The position numbers and the translations under genes were made by a program. DNA of 6,159 nucleotides from a bacterium (lineage in GTDB: Bacteria > Coprothermobacterota > Coprothermobacteria > Coprothermobacterales > JAADFF01): assembly GCA_027063755.1 (NCBI GenBank), contig JAMORD010000116.1, positions 1-6,159 on the forward strand, written 5' to 3'. The first letter of the stretch is position 1. Each line of letters opens with the position of its first letter. This document shows, in pieces, positions 1 through 5,802 of this stretch. Under the pieces are notes generated by a model. The model did not search any database. It had not been told where the DNA came from and was given only the letters and a program-made list of their open reading frames with translations.

Positions 1-196
1 TAAATTCCCCGAAGATATCAAGAAAAATCTTCAAGTGGGAATGACCCTTTATATGAATACCGAACAGGGGCCTATTCCTGTTAAGGTTGTTGCCATTGAA
101 GGTGCCACCGTTACCATAGATGCCAATCATCCACTGGCTGGCAAGACACTGGTATTTGACATTAAGGTTGTAGATATTAAGAAACAGGACAACTAA
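1..196 (+). CDS. slyD: FKBP-type peptidyl-prolyl cis-trans isomerase, SlyD-like, C-terminal part (5' end outside window)
   Basis: The frame with codons starting at base 2 is open from the window edge to a TAA at 194-196, giving 64 residues. It contains QGPIPVKVVAI, followed after a short spacer by DANHPLAGKTLVFDIKVV. The NHPLAG motif followed by a hydrophobic beta strand is the hallmark C-terminal half of the FKBP fold in SlyD-type isomerases, which speed prolyl isomerisation and act as cytoplasmic chaperones. The preceding stretch (FPEDIKKNLQVGMTLYM) fits the end of the IF (insert-in-flap) chaperone domain and its return to FKBP. The protein ends in KKQDN, so the His/Cys-rich metal-binding tail of E. 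coli SlyD is absent, as in short-tailed SlyD proteins. A strong terminator follows at once, so it is probably the last gene of its own transcript and not linked to the exporter cluster. Family assignment is confident; the symbol is slightly less so because the N-terminus is not visible. Confidence 0.85.
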   Translation, partial: KFPEDIKKNLQVGMTLYMNTEQGPIPVKVVAIEGATVTIDANHPLAGKTLVFDIKVVDIKKQDN

Positions 197-217: not shown

Positions 218-248
218 AAGGGAGGGCTCGCCCTCCCTTTTCTTTTTG
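218..248 (+). terminator. Rho-independent terminator after slyD
   Basis: A 9-bp perfect stem (218-226 pairing with 231-239, AAGGGAGGG with CCCTCCCTT) closes on a CTCG tetraloop and runs into a T-rich tract (TTTTCTTTTT up to 247). It lies 22 bases after the slyD stop codon. The stem is GC-rich in an AT-rich neighbourhood. A weak 5-bp hairpin (AATAG 202-206 with CTATT 213-217) sits just upstream and is probably incidental. The terminator separates slyD from the following genes, which therefore need their own promoter. Confidence 0.93.
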
Positions 249-369: not shown

Positions 370-380
370 GGAGGGGTGAT
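370..380 (+). promoter_or_regulatory. ribosome binding site deciding the ATG start at 383
   Basis: The sequence GGAGGGGTGAT is almost fully complementary to the usual bacterial 16S rRNA tail. A TTG at 380-382 directly before the ATG extends the open frame by one codon, but it would overlap this ribosome binding site. The ATG at 383, seven bases after GAGGG, is therefore the better start. Confidence 0.75.
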
Positions 381-382
381 TG

Positions 383-1312
383 ATGAAAAAGGTTTGGATT
401 GCACTTGCACTGATTTTATTTGCCGTTATATTAATGGTGACATTGTATATGCCGCATGGTGGAGATGTTTTTCCATATACATATGTAGAGTTTGATAAAA
501 ACCTCGTTATGCACGATCTATCCACAGGGAAGACGGCTACCGTTGCTCCTCCCGGATATCTCATGGGTATAGCTCCCCATGCACTGGTATTTGCCAAGCC
601 TATAAATGGCGATAAACAGATGCAGTTGATATATCTCTATGGTGCCACGGCATCAAGAACTATAGGCACATATGATATGCCAACATTTGTTGGTCTTCAA
701 GATGACAACTTTGCCGTTGTAATCTATGGAAAGACCGTTTCTGATATGCAGGTATGTGCTATCCTCGTAGACGGTCAGGAGAAATGCACTTCCATGCCGT
801 CTGATGCCGCCTCAGACTTGCAAACCTTGGGGCCGGCAAACGCAAAGGTTTGGTATGATGGCACATATTTTTACTATCTTGGTAGGTTTGTTGAGCGATT
901 TGGCAATGAAGAGCACAAGCAGATAGAGGAGAATGCCGATCTTATGTATGCTTATGTCTTGCCTCTTGAAGGGCATAGGTTTATTCTTGGTGGTAAAACT
1001 GTCTCTCTATATGATAAAGACGGCTTTGTAAAGTCTGCTACAGTGAAATTGTCACCGAGATGGATATCTCCACGCATGGTGTATTGTGGAAATGCCATTG
1101 CCGTGCCAAGTGGGGGCAAGACCTATAAAATATCTATTCCCGACATGAATATTAAGAAAACGCTGAAAGGTATTCCTGTTGGTTGTGTGAATAAACAGGT
1201 GCTTTTGTTTAAGGGCATATATCCTACTAAGGGTGACATTATTTCCGAAAATGGTCATGTGTATCTAAGAGATGTGTCATTTGGAGCCCTGATAGGGGGA
1301 ATTAGGCCTTGA
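383..1312 (+). CDS. unrecognised membrane-anchored, beta-rich extracytoplasmic protein coupled to the ABC exporter
   Basis: I do not recognise this 309-residue protein. It begins MKK, then a hydrophobic stretch at about residues 4-22, then a short Pro/Gly-rich segment. This fits either an uncleaved N-terminal anchor or a signal peptide. No lipobox cysteine follows the hydrophobic stretch. The remaining roughly 285 residues alternate short hydrophobic strands with Gly, Asn and Asp turns and contain no long helix, suggesting an all-beta domain, possibly propeller-like. An example is the YVEFDKNLVMHDLSTGK stretch near the start. There are four cysteines (about 125, 135, 235 and 268). The first two flank a 9-residue loop and could form a disulfide outside the membrane. 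The stop overlaps the start of exporter subunit A by 4 bases (TTGA), so the two are probably translated together. I infer an accessory or surface partner of the exporter; no enzymatic motif is visible. Confidence is high that it is a gene and low on role. Confidence 0.85.
   Translation: MKKVWIALALILFAVILMVTLYMPHGGDVFPYTYVEFDKNLVMHDLSTGKTATVAPPGYLMGIAPHALVFAKPINGDKQMQLIYLYGATASRTIGTYDMPTFVGLQDDNFAVVIYGKTVSDMQVCAILVDGQEKCTSMPSDAASDLQTLGPANAKVWYDGTYFYYLGRFVERFGNEEHKQIEENADLMYAYVLPLEGHRFILGGKTVSLYDKDGFVKSATVKLSPRWISPRMVYCGNAIAVPSGGKTYKISIPDMNIKKTLKGIPVGCVNKQVLLFKGIYPTKGDIISENGHVYLRDVSFGALIGGIRP
1294..1300 (+). promoter_or_regulatory. ribosome binding site for the TTG start of exporter subunit A
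   Basis: AGGGGGA lies inside the end of the upstream gene and 8 bases before the TTG at 1309-1311. It supports the TTG as the start. The start overlaps the upstream stop as TTGA, and the protein beginning there has the normal N-terminal length for a half-transporter. Unlike the other starts in this cluster it lacks the GGTGAT extension. Confidence 0.65.
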
Positions 1313-3036
1313 AGAGGCTGTTTGGTTATCTAAAAACTCAGTGGAAGAAAATTCTTATAGCCTTTATATCACTTGTACTTGTTGATATTATGCAGATTAT
1401 ATATCCGCAGTATGTAAGAAAGGCTATAAATCTTATAAAGTCTCTCAGCACAGATACCGACAAAGCCCACTGGATAAGCGTTTTATGGCACTATGCATTT
1501 ATCATGATAGCCCTTTTTGTAGCTGTTGCCATATTTAGACTTATATATCGTTGGTTTTTGAGAACGGTGGCTGTTAATTACGATCACCAACTCCGTATGG
1601 ATATTATGAATAAGTATCTTTCCTTTAGTGAAAGAGACCTTCAGAAGTTTGATGTCGGTGATCTTATGTCCCGTCTGATTAGGGATACACGGAGTGTCAG
1701 AAGGTTTATCATGATGGGAACCATTATCCTTGTTGATTTTTTGGTGCTCGGGGGAATGACAATAGCTACGATGATGTCTATGAGTCCTCATTTAACACTG
1801 GTGAGTGTGCCACCAATGATTATTCTTACAATCTTTGTTCTCTGGGCTGGCTCTTATATGCAGAAGAAGTTCAAGGTCATGCTGGAGCTTTTTGGGGATA
1901 TGACAGAGAGGGTCAGAGAGACGACTATAGGTATCAAGGTTATCAAGACATTTGTTAGAGAGGATTTCTTTATGAAACTCTTTGAGGAGATTAATGATAG
2001 GTACATAGGTACTGGTGTAAGGCTCTATACACTCCAGTCTTCATTTTGGCCTCTCTCCAGTGTTGTTTCAGGGTTGTCTCTTGTTATCGTGCTGTGGGTA
2101 GGAGGCAACATGGTTATGAGTGGCAAGATGGATATTGGTACACTGGTGTCTTTTATGATGTATATCAATATGATTGCCTGGCCTATGCTTAGTATAGGTA
2201 TGTTTATTACCGTTTACAGTATGTCTAAGTCTGCCATTCAGCGTATAGATGAGGTGCTGACATATGAACCTGAGGTTGAGGATACAGGAACTAAGGAGAT
2301 TGAAGGTGTATCTCATATTACTGTGAAAGATATCAAAGACGATATTGTGTTAAAAGGCGTGTCATTTAGTGTTTCTAAGGGGCAGGTGCTTGGTATTACA
2401 GGTCCCCCCGGCAGTGGTAAGACGGTGCTTATGAAATATTTACCAAGACTCTGGCAGCCGGGTGATGGTATGGTATTTGTCAATGATATAGATGTAAACG
2501 ATATAAAACTTCCGTCTTTGAGAAAACATTTTTCTTATGTGCCTCAAGACCCCATACTCTTTGCCGGTACTGTAAGGGAGAACATAGCATTTGCCAAACC
2601 TGATGCAACCGAAGAGGAGATTATATGGGCGGCAAAGATGGCATGTGTCTGGGACGATATACAGGCACTCCCCAATGGGTTGGATACTGTTGTTGGTGAG
2701 AGGGGAATCACCCTTTCGGGAGGACAGAGGCAGAGGGTATCTATTGCCCGTGCTTTTCTAGCAGGTAAAGATATTCTTATACTTGATGACCCTCTATCAG
2801 CTGTAGATACCCATACAGAGAGATGCATTGTGAAAAATCTCAAAGAATATGTGGCACAGCATAAGCCACTGACAATTATCGTATCTCATAGAATACCCGC
2901 CATACACTGGGCTGATTATGTGCTTGTGCTTGAAAGGGGAAGGGTTCTTGAGGAGGGAACTCCTGACAAGCTTGCCAAGGGTGATGGTCTGTATAGCAGG
3001 CTCTATCGCTATCAGATGGGTGGTGATGTAGAGTGA
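1309..3036 (+). CDS. heterodimeric ABC exporter subunit A (MdlA/YheI-like half-transporter, non-catalytic Walker B)
   Basis: This is a 575-residue half-transporter with an N-terminal six-helix exporter domain (helices near 13-36, 60-83, 134-156, 161-183, 248-270 and 278-304) and a C-terminal ATPase domain. Motifs seen are Walker A GPPGSGKT (365-372), Q-loop Gln413, an X-loop-like TVVGERG (460-466), signature LSGGQ (469-473), Walker B ILILD (489-493), D-loop SAVD (497-500) and His527. Residue 494, normally the catalytic Glu, is Asp. The LDDPLSAVD pattern is typical of MdlA/YheI-type subunits that pair with a catalytic partner. The signature is intact, so it completes the hydrolytic site on subunit B. 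Walker A is slightly unusual: Val373 follows Thr372 where Ser or Thr is common. The stretch before the first ATPase strands (about 336-350) is short and has no aromatic at the expected A-loop position. The start is TTG. The protein should form an inner-membrane exporter with the next gene; the substrate (drug, lipid or peptide) cannot be read from sequence. Confidence 0.95.
   Translation: MKRLFGYLKTQWKKILIAFISLVLVDIMQIIYPQYVRKAINLIKSLSTDTDKAHWISVLWHYAFIMIALFVAVAIFRLIYRWFLRTVAVNYDHQLRMDIMNKYLSFSERDLQKFDVGDLMSRLIRDTRSVRRFIMMGTIILVDFLVLGGMTIATMMSMSPHLTLVSVPPMIILTIFVLWAGSYMQKKFKVMLELFGDMTERVRETTIGIKVIKTFVREDFFMKLFEEINDRYIGTGVRLYTLQSSFWPLSSVVSGLSLVIVLWVGGNMVMSGKMDIGTLVSFMMYINMIAWPMLSIGMFITVYSMSKSAIQRIDEVLTYEPEVEDTGTKEIEGVSHITVKDIKDDIVLKGVSFSVSKGQVLGITGPPGSGKTVLMKYLPRLWQPGDGMVFVNDIDVNDIKLPSLRKHFSYVPQDPILFAGTVRENIAFAKPDATEEEIIWAAKMACVWDDIQALPNGLDTVVGERGITLSGGQRQRVSIARAFLAGKDILILDDPLSAVDTHTERCIVKNLKEYVAQHKPLTIIVSHRIPAIHWADYVLVLERGRVLEEGTPDKLAKGDGLYSRLYRYQMGGDVE
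3018..3027 (+). promoter_or_regulatory. extended ribosome binding site for the GTG start of exporter subunit B
   Basis: GGGTGGTGAT ends 5 bases before the GTG at 3033-3035. Its GGTGAT part is complementary to the AUCACC end of bacterial 16S rRNA. It lies inside the last codons of subunit A and fixes the GTG start, which overlaps the upstream stop as GTGA. Confidence 0.8.
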
Positions 3037-4751
3037 AACTGCTCTGGAAATATGTGAAACGCTATTGGATATGGATTGTGTTTGGTGTTATAGGTTTGTT
3101 CCTTCAGCTATTCTTTAAACTCATTAATCCATATCTGATACGCATTCTTATAGACCAATATATTATGAAAAATGACTTTGCTGGTGCTACCCGTATTATG
3201 TATCTCATTTTAGGATTCACATTGGGTTTGGGTATACCCCTAATTTTCTCTTCATGGGCTATTAATATGCTGACATTCAAGGTAATGAAGGATATTCGTA
3301 TGGATATGTTTAAGCATATGATGCGGCAGGGGCTTTACTTCTTCTCTAAGACACCAACAGGTGTTATTGTTACCCGTATTACCAATGATGTGGCCTCTGT
3401 AGGCGATGTGCTTGCAGGGAGTATTCCAGCTATCGTGTCCGATGTATTTATCATTACAGGTGTATGGGTGTTTCTATTTCTTGTTAATATGAAACTGGCA
3501 CTTATTGAACTTGTGTTTGCTCCGATTATTGCCCTTCTTGCCATAGGATTTGGTCGCTGGCTTAGAAATCTATACTCCCATATCAGAGATGTCAGGGCGA
3601 CCTTAAATGTTAAGTCTCAAGAGATACTATCTGCTATTCCCATTATTCAGGTGTTTGTGCAGGTCCCGCGTATCAGGAAAGATTATGAAAAGACATCGCT
3701 GGAATACAGAAATAGTCTATTTAAGGCATTTTTCATAACAGATATATTCAATGTACTTTCAGGTCCTGTCCTCAAAACATCAATGCAGGCAACGGCTATT
3801 GTCGCTGGTGGATATCTAATCTTAAAAAATCAATCTACCATAGGTGATGTTGTGGCATTTCTCACATATATCAGCTATCTCATAGAGCCTATTAGGGATA
3901 TAGCCGATAAGTATACAATGATACAAGATGCCACATCGGCCATTAACAAGATACAGCGTTTTATGAATGAAAATTGGTACATACCGGAGGCTGACAATCC
4001 ACATACAGGCAAGCCCGAAGGCTATATTAGATACGATGATGTTCACTTTGCATATCCCGGTACCAAGAAAGAGGTTATTAGAGGTGTGTCATTTGAGGCG
4101 CTGAAGGGTAAAAAGGTTGCCCTTGTGGGCTTTACAGGTTCTGGTAAATCTACATTGCTGAATCTGGCCCTGAGATTTTACGATGTAGATAAAGGTGCCA
4201 TATATGTTGACGATATAGATATCAGACAGTGGAAAAAAGATGACCTGAGAAGTGGTGCTGCTGTGGTGTTGCAAGAACCTTTTCTGTTTAAGGGAACCAT
4301 TAAGGATAACATTACACTTGGTAGAGATATCCCCCTTGATGAGGTTATAGATGCCGCCAAACGCGTTCATGCCCACGACTTTATCAAAGATTTGCCCGAT
4401 GGATACGATACACTGGTGCTTTCAGGTGGTGCAAATCTCTCTGTGGGACAGAGACAGCTGATATCCCTTGCCCGCGCCCTCGTACATCACCCGTCTATTC
4501 TCATACTTGATGAGGCCACGGCTTCTATTGACAGTGAGACAGAGAGACTTATACAACATGGCCTTGAAGAGGTGATGAAGGGCCGTACAACACTCATGGT
4601 TGCTCATAGGCTTTCTACGATTCGTGAGGCCGACAAGATTTTGGTGCTTGACAGTGGAAGGGTTGTTGAAGAAGGAACCCACGACGAACTGCTCCAGAAA
4701 AAGGGCCTGTATTACGAGCTGTATATGCTTCAGTGGGCGTCTGGGGAGTGA
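3033..4751 (+). CDS. heterodimeric ABC exporter subunit B (MdlB/YheH-like half-transporter, catalytic Walker B)
   Basis: This 572-residue half-transporter has six membrane helices (roughly 11-34, 53-75, 132-152, 154-175, 240-264 and 272-295) and a C-terminal ATPase. Motifs seen are A-loop Tyr341 in FAYPG, Walker A GFTGSGKS (366-373), Q-loop Gln414, signature LSVGQ (469-473), Walker B ILILD (489-493) with catalytic Glu494, D-loop end SID (498-500) and His525. It supplies the working ATP site together with the LSGGQ of subunit A. Its own signature has Val for the first Gly, as in MdlB-type partners (LSVGQRQ), and faces the Asp494 site of subunit A. The X-loop, usually close to TEVGERG, reads TLVLSGG (460-466), so the conserved Glu is gone and an LSGG string appears just ahead of the true signature. 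It overlaps subunit A by 4 bases, which favours equal synthesis and assembly of the two halves. Heterodimeric multidrug exporters are the nearest familiar models, but the substrate is unknown. Confidence 0.95.
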   Translation: MKLLWKYVKRYWIWIVFGVIGLFLQLFFKLINPYLIRILIDQYIMKNDFAGATRIMYLILGFTLGLGIPLIFSSWAINMLTFKVMKDIRMDMFKHMMRQGLYFFSKTPTGVIVTRITNDVASVGDVLAGSIPAIVSDVFIITGVWVFLFLVNMKLALIELVFAPIIALLAIGFGRWLRNLYSHIRDVRATLNVKSQEILSAIPIIQVFVQVPRIRKDYEKTSLEYRNSLFKAFFITDIFNVLSGPVLKTSMQATAIVAGGYLILKNQSTIGDVVAFLTYISYLIEPIRDIADKYTMIQDATSAINKIQRFMNENWYIPEADNPHTGKPEGYIRYDDVHFAYPGTKKEVIRGVSFEALKGKKVALVGFTGSGKSTLLNLALRFYDVDKGAIYVDDIDIRQWKKDDLRSGAAVVLQEPFLFKGTIKDNITLGRDIPLDEVIDAAKRVHAHDFIKDLPDGYDTLVLSGGANLSVGQRQLISLARALVHHPSILILDEATASIDSETERLIQHGLEEVMKGRTTLMVAHRLSTIREADKILVLDSGRVVEEGTHDELLQKKGLYYELYMLQWASGE

Positions 4752-4777
4752 TTTCTGATAAAATAAATTATCAGAAA
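4752..4777 (+). repeat. perfect 10-bp inverted repeat between subunit B and the TPR gene
   Basis: The arms TTTCTGATAA (4752-4761) and TTATCAGAAA (4768-4777) are perfect reverse complements around a 6-base AATAAA loop. The repeat begins directly after the subunit B stop codon. It is followed on the + strand by an A-run (to 4780) rather than a T-run, and the stem is AT-rich, so it is not a convincing intrinsic terminator on either strand. It could be an RNA hairpin that stabilises or processes the exporter mRNA, or a dimeric repressor operator for the downstream genes. The sequence does not decide between these. Confidence 0.8.
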
Positions 4778-4803: not shown

Positions 4804-5802
4804 TTGAATAGGCGGGTATATGTTGTTTTGTCATCAATATTGTCGTTTTTTTCCGGTGTTGGTCTAGTTTTTCTACTTGCCATGGGGAAAGCTACTGCTA
4901 AGGCACCTGCTATAAGGGCACTTTACAATAGGGGCTTTATATTGGGAGTGGTGTTATTTGTTGTTATGTTGGCCTTAGGCCTTTTGATAAAAGATGGAGA
5001 AAAAGCACTTACCAAAGAAGAGGTCTCTTTTAACGATCTTGTAAAAGAGCTGAGAGAAACTATAAGTAAAGCTTCTCATAGTCCAGATATTCGTCATACC
5101 TTTGCAGATTACCTTAAGAGTATGTGGGTAGATGAATCTACAAAGCTCCTTGTTGAAAGGGCACTGAAAGAGGTAATTGATGAGTTTCATGACCAGGCAT
5201 GGTTGTTTGCCCTATATGCAGAACTGCTGATGAGTGATGGCAGATGGGCTGATGCCGAGGTGATGATTAAGAGGGCGTGGGCTGCTGCCCCTACCGATGA
5301 ATATGTTAGGCAAGTCGTTAGGCAGTGGATAGATGCCCGTAGTGAAAAAGATCCATTCAGGGTGTCTGAGATGGTGAGAAAACTTAGGGAGGTATATCCC
5401 GAGGGCTGGCTATATATCCTTGAGGCGGAACATATGATGAAGATTGGTCGCACAGGTAATATAGAAGACATACTTGTAGAGGCGTATAAACTCAGCGATG
5501 AAGATATATCGCTCTTGGAAGTTATATCTGCATATTTAGGGTATCTTGCCTCTGAAGGAAGAGAACCCCAAATGTTTGCCTTCTTTGAGAAACTAAGAAA
5601 AGTCGGGGAAAAACCCATTATATATGCCGTGGAGGCAAAACTCTCTGTGCTGGCCGGTGATTATGATAGGGCCGTAGAGGCCGTGAGGAAACTGAAAGAT
5701 AGCGGGGCATCTTCTGAGATTGTTGATGCTGTGATTGCAGATATTATGAATGGGGCACGGAGTGATGGAAGGGAGGATATACTTTCTAAATTGTTTGAGT
5801 AG
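4804..5802 (+). CDS. membrane protein with two N-terminal helices and TPR-like repeats
   Basis: The protein has 332 residues and starts at TTG. Two hydrophobic helices lie at about 5-27 and 44-62, separated by a basic loop (K29, K33, R38, R43). The rest is alpha-helical and acidic/basic. The clearest TPR-like unit is at about 131-163, with the A..LlmsdGRWadAevmikrA...P pattern. A second is at about 271-302, with a GDYDRAVEAVRKL core. A weaker helical pair sits at 201-234. TPR arrays bind protein partners, so a scaffold or assembly role at the membrane is plausible, but no specific family is recognised. The layout of two helices followed by a TPR tail is loosely reminiscent of HemY, without enough similarity to claim it. 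The gene follows the exporter after 52 bases and is followed after 2 bases by the next gene, so it may belong to the same transcript or start a second one. Which side of the membrane holds the repeats cannot be settled from charge alone. Confidence 0.85.
   Translation: MNRRVYVVLSSILSFFSGVGLVFLLAMGKATAKAPAIRALYNRGFILGVVLFVVMLALGLLIKDGEKALTKEEVSFNDLVKELRETISKASHSPDIRHTFADYLKSMWVDESTKLLVERALKEVIDEFHDQAWLFALYAELLMSDGRWADAEVMIKRAWAAAPTDEYVRQVVRQWIDARSEKDPFRVSEMVRKLREVYPEGWLYILEAEHMMKIGRTGNIEDILVEAYKLSDEDISLLEVISAYLGYLASEGREPQMFAFFEKLRKVGEKPIIYAVEAKLSVLAGDYDRAVEAVRKLKDSGASSEIVDAVIADIMNGARSDGREDILSKLFE

Follow-up and report, generated by a model that had tools for sequence, protein, structure and literature searches.

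What might a membrane-anchored protein do whose gene opens an operon and runs directly into the genes of an ABC exporter? We examined this for a window comprising one entire contig of 6159 bases, from a genome of 1.5 Mb in 251 contigs that is 88% complete, and compared it with the same locus in a sister species. The features of the window are listed in Table 1.

Table 1. Coordinates and characteristics of the features in the 6159-base window.
Feature	Position	Strand	Remarks
FKBP-type peptidyl-prolyl isomerase gene, 3' end	2..196	+	NCBIfam PRK10737, E 8e-13; separate transcription unit
Intrinsic terminator, 9-bp stem then T-rich tail	218..239	+	-16.2 kcal/mol, z -3.4
Ribosome-binding site GGAGGGGTGAT	370..380	+	From sequence; 5' of ATG 383; sister has matching site
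Membrane-anchored, probable beta-propeller protein, 309 aa	383..1312	+	TM ~4-23; domain ~30-309
ABC half-exporter A (ABC-A)	1309..3036	+	GPPGSGKT, LSGGQ, Walker B ILILDD; TTG start
ABC half-exporter B (ABC-B)	3033..4751	+	GFTGSGKST, degenerate signature LSVGQ, Walker B ILILDE; GTG start
TPR-repeat protein with two N-terminal hydrophobic segments	4804..5802	+	Genus-specific within phylum
Large protein, 5' end only, cut by contig end	5805..6159	+	N-terminal region genus-specific; intact sister copy ends in GGDEF

The order of the genes (FKBP, propeller-like gene, ABC-A, ABC-B, TPR, GGDEF protein) is identical in the sister species. There the FKBP-type isomerase gene is full-length and lipoprotein-like (L026:4181-4834; FKBP_C match, E 2e-26), and the last gene (L026:10452-13943) encodes 1163 amino acids, in which a long N-terminal region without a Pfam match precedes the GGDEF domain at the C-terminus. 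The strong terminator following the FKBP gene, for which the sister genome has an equivalent stem and T tail, separates the FKBP gene from the operon starting at position 383, so that transcription of this unit begins with 383-1312 as its first gene. A GGAGG-type ribosome-binding site lies ~8 nt before its ATG. The stretch between ABC-B and the TPR gene contains, at 4752-4777, an A+T-rich inverted repeat of 10 bp, TTTCTGATAA-AATAAA-TTATCAGAAA. This hairpin was considered as a control element, and was rejected because it is absent from the sister genome.

The product of 383-1312 begins with MKK, a short positive stretch, and ~19 hydrophobic residues, followed by a domain containing four Cys residues (C125, C135, C235 and C268). 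AlphaFold2 placed a helix at residues 2-22, with strands after it. Its relative in the sister species, on contig JAADFF010000059.1, is 79% identical across all 309 residues and conserves all four cysteines. Substitutions between the two genes fall mostly in the third codon position (52/26/126 for positions 1, 2 and 3), with dN of 0.13 and dS of 1.03 (dN/dS ~0.13). The excess at position 3 and the low dN/dS indicate that 383-1312 is a real gene under purifying selection. Its dN (0.129) compares with 0.044 and 0.035 for the exporter genes, corresponding to ~3-fold faster protein evolution, which would suit an accessory part on the outside of the exporter.

Searches of Pfam, NCBIfam and PDB sequences, queried with the single sequence and with the pair, gave no match to this protein up to an E-value of 10, and none was found in viral contigs (IMG/VR) or plasmid collections. 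A two-sequence profile recovered the protein in 2 of the 386 genomes searched, both in the same genus; the phylum's seven other genomes lack the gene, even when searched at E 10. One further match, in a very long open frame of an unrelated genome (G022, locus L003; E 2e-4, 28% over ~115 residues), was not accepted as a relative; the two-sequence profile did not recover it. As judged from these sequence searches, 383-1312 represents an uncatalogued, lineage-restricted family, in a small and poorly sampled phylum of which nine genomes entered the comparison. The sequence-only reading had described the first gene of the cluster as encoding an N-terminal anchor, a beta-rich extracytoplasmic domain with four cysteines and no recognised family; the terminator, the hydrophobic stretch and predicted helix, the predicted strands with cysteines kept in the sister, and the searches bear out each of these points.

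That reading had also proposed structure prediction, which yielded beta-rich models with propeller-like matches, at low confidence. AlphaFold2 was run twice with two sequences only, on the full-length protein and on the domain alone with the sister protein as the query, and gave pLDDT values of 41 and 42, respectively, with the C-terminal half under 50. In both models, the N-terminal half forms two four-stranded meanders ~42 residues apart (E59-64/67-74/79-86/90-98 and E102-106/109-115/123-127/133-137, P0001 numbering), an arrangement typical of propeller blades, and the C-terminal half is unmodelled. Among the top rows of Foldseek searches of the PDB with each low-confidence model, the matches were overwhelmingly beta-propellers, with TM-scores of 0.2-0.4, including BamB, CNH, TolB, Nup159, WD40, clathrin terminal domain and S9 peptidase propellers. 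VIA-align again returned propellers, with a best Z of 8.3 and an rmsd of 4.0 across 136 residues, where a Z of ~7-8 can reflect a common arrangement. A sequence periodicity near 42 is visible, yet not significant versus shuffles, and none of the self-repeat tests (profile self-comparison, autocorrelation, self-alignment, spectral) was significant. No match to the WD40, PQQ, YVTN, kelch or LVIVD repeat families of Pfam and NCBIfam was found even at E 10. On the strength of the models, the 383-1312 domain is probably a beta-propeller.

ABC-A and ABC-B each contain an ABC_membrane and an ABC_tran domain in one chain, and are two different chains encoded in tandem. In ABC-A, Walker A and the signature are canonical, with Asp replacing the catalytic Glu in Walker B, and ABC-B has an altered signature and a canonical Walker B. 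This combination points to a heterodimer with one consensus and one degenerate ATP site, a hallmark of such heterodimeric exporters (PMC7756269). By its motifs, the pair is thus assigned as a standard heterodimeric type I ABC exporter. Its best bacterial solved relatives, all strong sequence matches, are YheI/YheH (BmrCD), TmrAB and TM287/288, with which it shares the tandem half-transporters, the Walker B Asp in one and the altered signature in the other. Unlike those systems, it is preceded by the gene for the anchored propeller-like protein, and followed by the TPR and GGDEF genes.

The stop codon of 383-1312 (1310-1312) shares 4 nt with the TTG start of ABC-A, and ABC-A and ABC-B also share 4 nt. 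Both overlaps are kept in the sister species (L026: 5957/5954 and 7681/7678). Across ten contigs of the sister genome, 4-bp overlaps occur at 8 of 63 (13%) same-strand junctions, so that the overlap by itself carries little weight. The translational coupling to the exporter that had been read from the sequence is therefore real as an arrangement, and ordinary for this lineage. The frequency of overlapping genes leaves some room for an independent surface protein (a ligand binder, scaffold or enzyme) that has a common promoter with its neighbours and no mechanistic tie to them. Such a protein would be in keeping with the many binding roles of propellers and with a linkage seen in two close genomes only, but the gene order and 4-nt overlap have been retained at 79% protein identity, and we regard this explanation as unlikely.

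To place the gene in context, relatives of ABC-A (E <= 1e-95) were collected from 145 genomes, and the upstream 1.5 kb was read at 24 loci outside the genus. An equivalent of 383-1312 was present at 0 of these 24 loci, as judged from translations rather than by a profile; upstream gene calls were unreliable in some G+C-rich loci (L036, L045, L049). The genes found upstream were mtnA-like and grpE-like in the sister family, and unrelated genes elsewhere. At L035, L043 and L047, the gene 5' of the exporter encodes a protein that looks exported but is unrelated. The absence of a recognisable partner at the 24 loci fits the expectation that heterodimeric exporters usually work without one. The exporter pair follows the gene in both species carrying it, a thin sample from one genus, and no recurrent pairing with exporters across lineages was found. 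Homologues away from exporters, or a match to a housekeeping family, which the sequence-only reading had named as evidence against its proposal, were not found in these searches.

Within the phylum, the TPR gene is likewise confined to the genus, as is the last protein outside its GGDEF domain, while relatives of the exporter occur everywhere; the marginal second matches of the last protein are to short stretches of other proteins from these two genomes. A genus-specific gene set (propeller, TPR, GGDEF) thus surrounds a widespread exporter pair. This pattern, together with the constant order of the five genes in both species, could mean that the propeller serves in the envelope or in signal input, working with the TPR and GGDEF proteins to link outside sensing to c-di-GMP, with the exporter simply co-transcribed or controlled by the signal. 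However, the exporter genes intervene between the propeller gene and the TPR and GGDEF genes, it is ABC-A that the propeller gene overlaps, and, apart from a few residues, the propeller has no part in the cytoplasm that could signal. We consider this explanation, the chief competitor of the outer-gate proposal below, less likely than not, with an appreciable chance.

In Pseudomonas putida, PedA1A2BC combines the non-cytoplasmic YVTN beta-propeller PedA2 with an ABC transporter in one predicted transcript (PMC6839425, PMC12997753). PedA2, a PQQ-dependent catabolism-associated beta-propeller protein, resembles 383-1312 in being an outside propeller encoded in an ABC operon. PedA1A2BC differs in having a separate permease, ATPase and substrate-binding protein, and is a reported lanthanide importer; the NCBIfam models of the PedA2 type gave no match to 383-1312 at E 10. 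TolB resembles the protein in that its propeller domain was one of the structures matched by the second low-confidence model, but 383-1312 is anchored, has no TolB sequence match, and lies in another gene context. BamB, the top fold match of the first low-confidence model, is a lipoprotein. Unlike BamB, 383-1312 has no cysteine near the anchor, and no Omp85/BamA was found in this genome, itself 88% complete, or elsewhere in the phylum. Omp85 and OEP (TolC-type) genes were found in 0 of the 9 genomes of the phylum, with positive controls in Thermotoga maritima and other diderms, and models of the BamB type and those linked to TolC were rejected on these grounds. The absence of Omp85 and TolC-type genes from these genomes suggests that export probably crosses one membrane, with the propeller located outside, beside the exporter.

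We propose that the product of 383-1312 would be a type II (N-in, C-out) anchored beta-propeller on the outer face of the cytoplasmic membrane, co-transcribed with the heterodimeric type I ABC exporter. The propeller would most likely sit at the outer gate of the exporter, where it could take over the exported substrate, or tune the opening and closing of the gate. The contact between propeller and exporter, and its gating or receiving role, are what we infer. An outer-gate role is physically reasonable, since the transport cycle of TM287/288 is shifted by a sybody bound to its outside wing (PMC6529423). That this lineage-specific propeller acts on the exporter from outside is the most economical proposal, and is put forward tentatively, at somewhat less than an even chance: the gene is known from two species of one genus, and exporters of this class work without partners elsewhere. 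The earlier idea of an exporter component keeps its basis in the shared operon and the unusual partner, while the TPR and GGDEF proteins could equally be the partners.

Membrane-anchored immunity proteins accompany some peptide exporters, and in another explanation the propeller would be an immunity or substrate-sequestering protein, guarding the cell against the exported compound. Neither the window nor the 14.3-kb sister contig has a recognisable gene for a small substrate peptide or for modification, and ABC-A and ABC-B have no peptidase domain and score far under the bacteriocin-exporter cut-offs. Such a function is highly improbable. In an extension of the outer-face proposal, the five genes would form one export module, in which the new-family propeller serves the degenerate-site exporter as its dedicated gate or receiver subunit, and a cytoplasmic TPR protein and diguanylate cyclase link export to c-di-GMP; a module of this extent appears improbable.

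Should the propeller prove to be a genuine subunit of the exporter, a class of exporters regarded as self-sufficient would have a natural partner on the outside, similar to the synthetic binders with which the outer gate is studied. If it is not, it would still represent a new sequence family with a probable propeller fold, in a small and poorly sampled phylum.

The sister contig extends further upstream than the window. There, the region 5' of the FKBP gene contains genes for a chemotaxis receptor, for a protein of 205 aa that matches nothing in Pfam (L026:3010-3627) and for a hemerythrin-domain protein (L026:3624-4106), the last of which overlaps the 205-aa protein gene by 4 bp.
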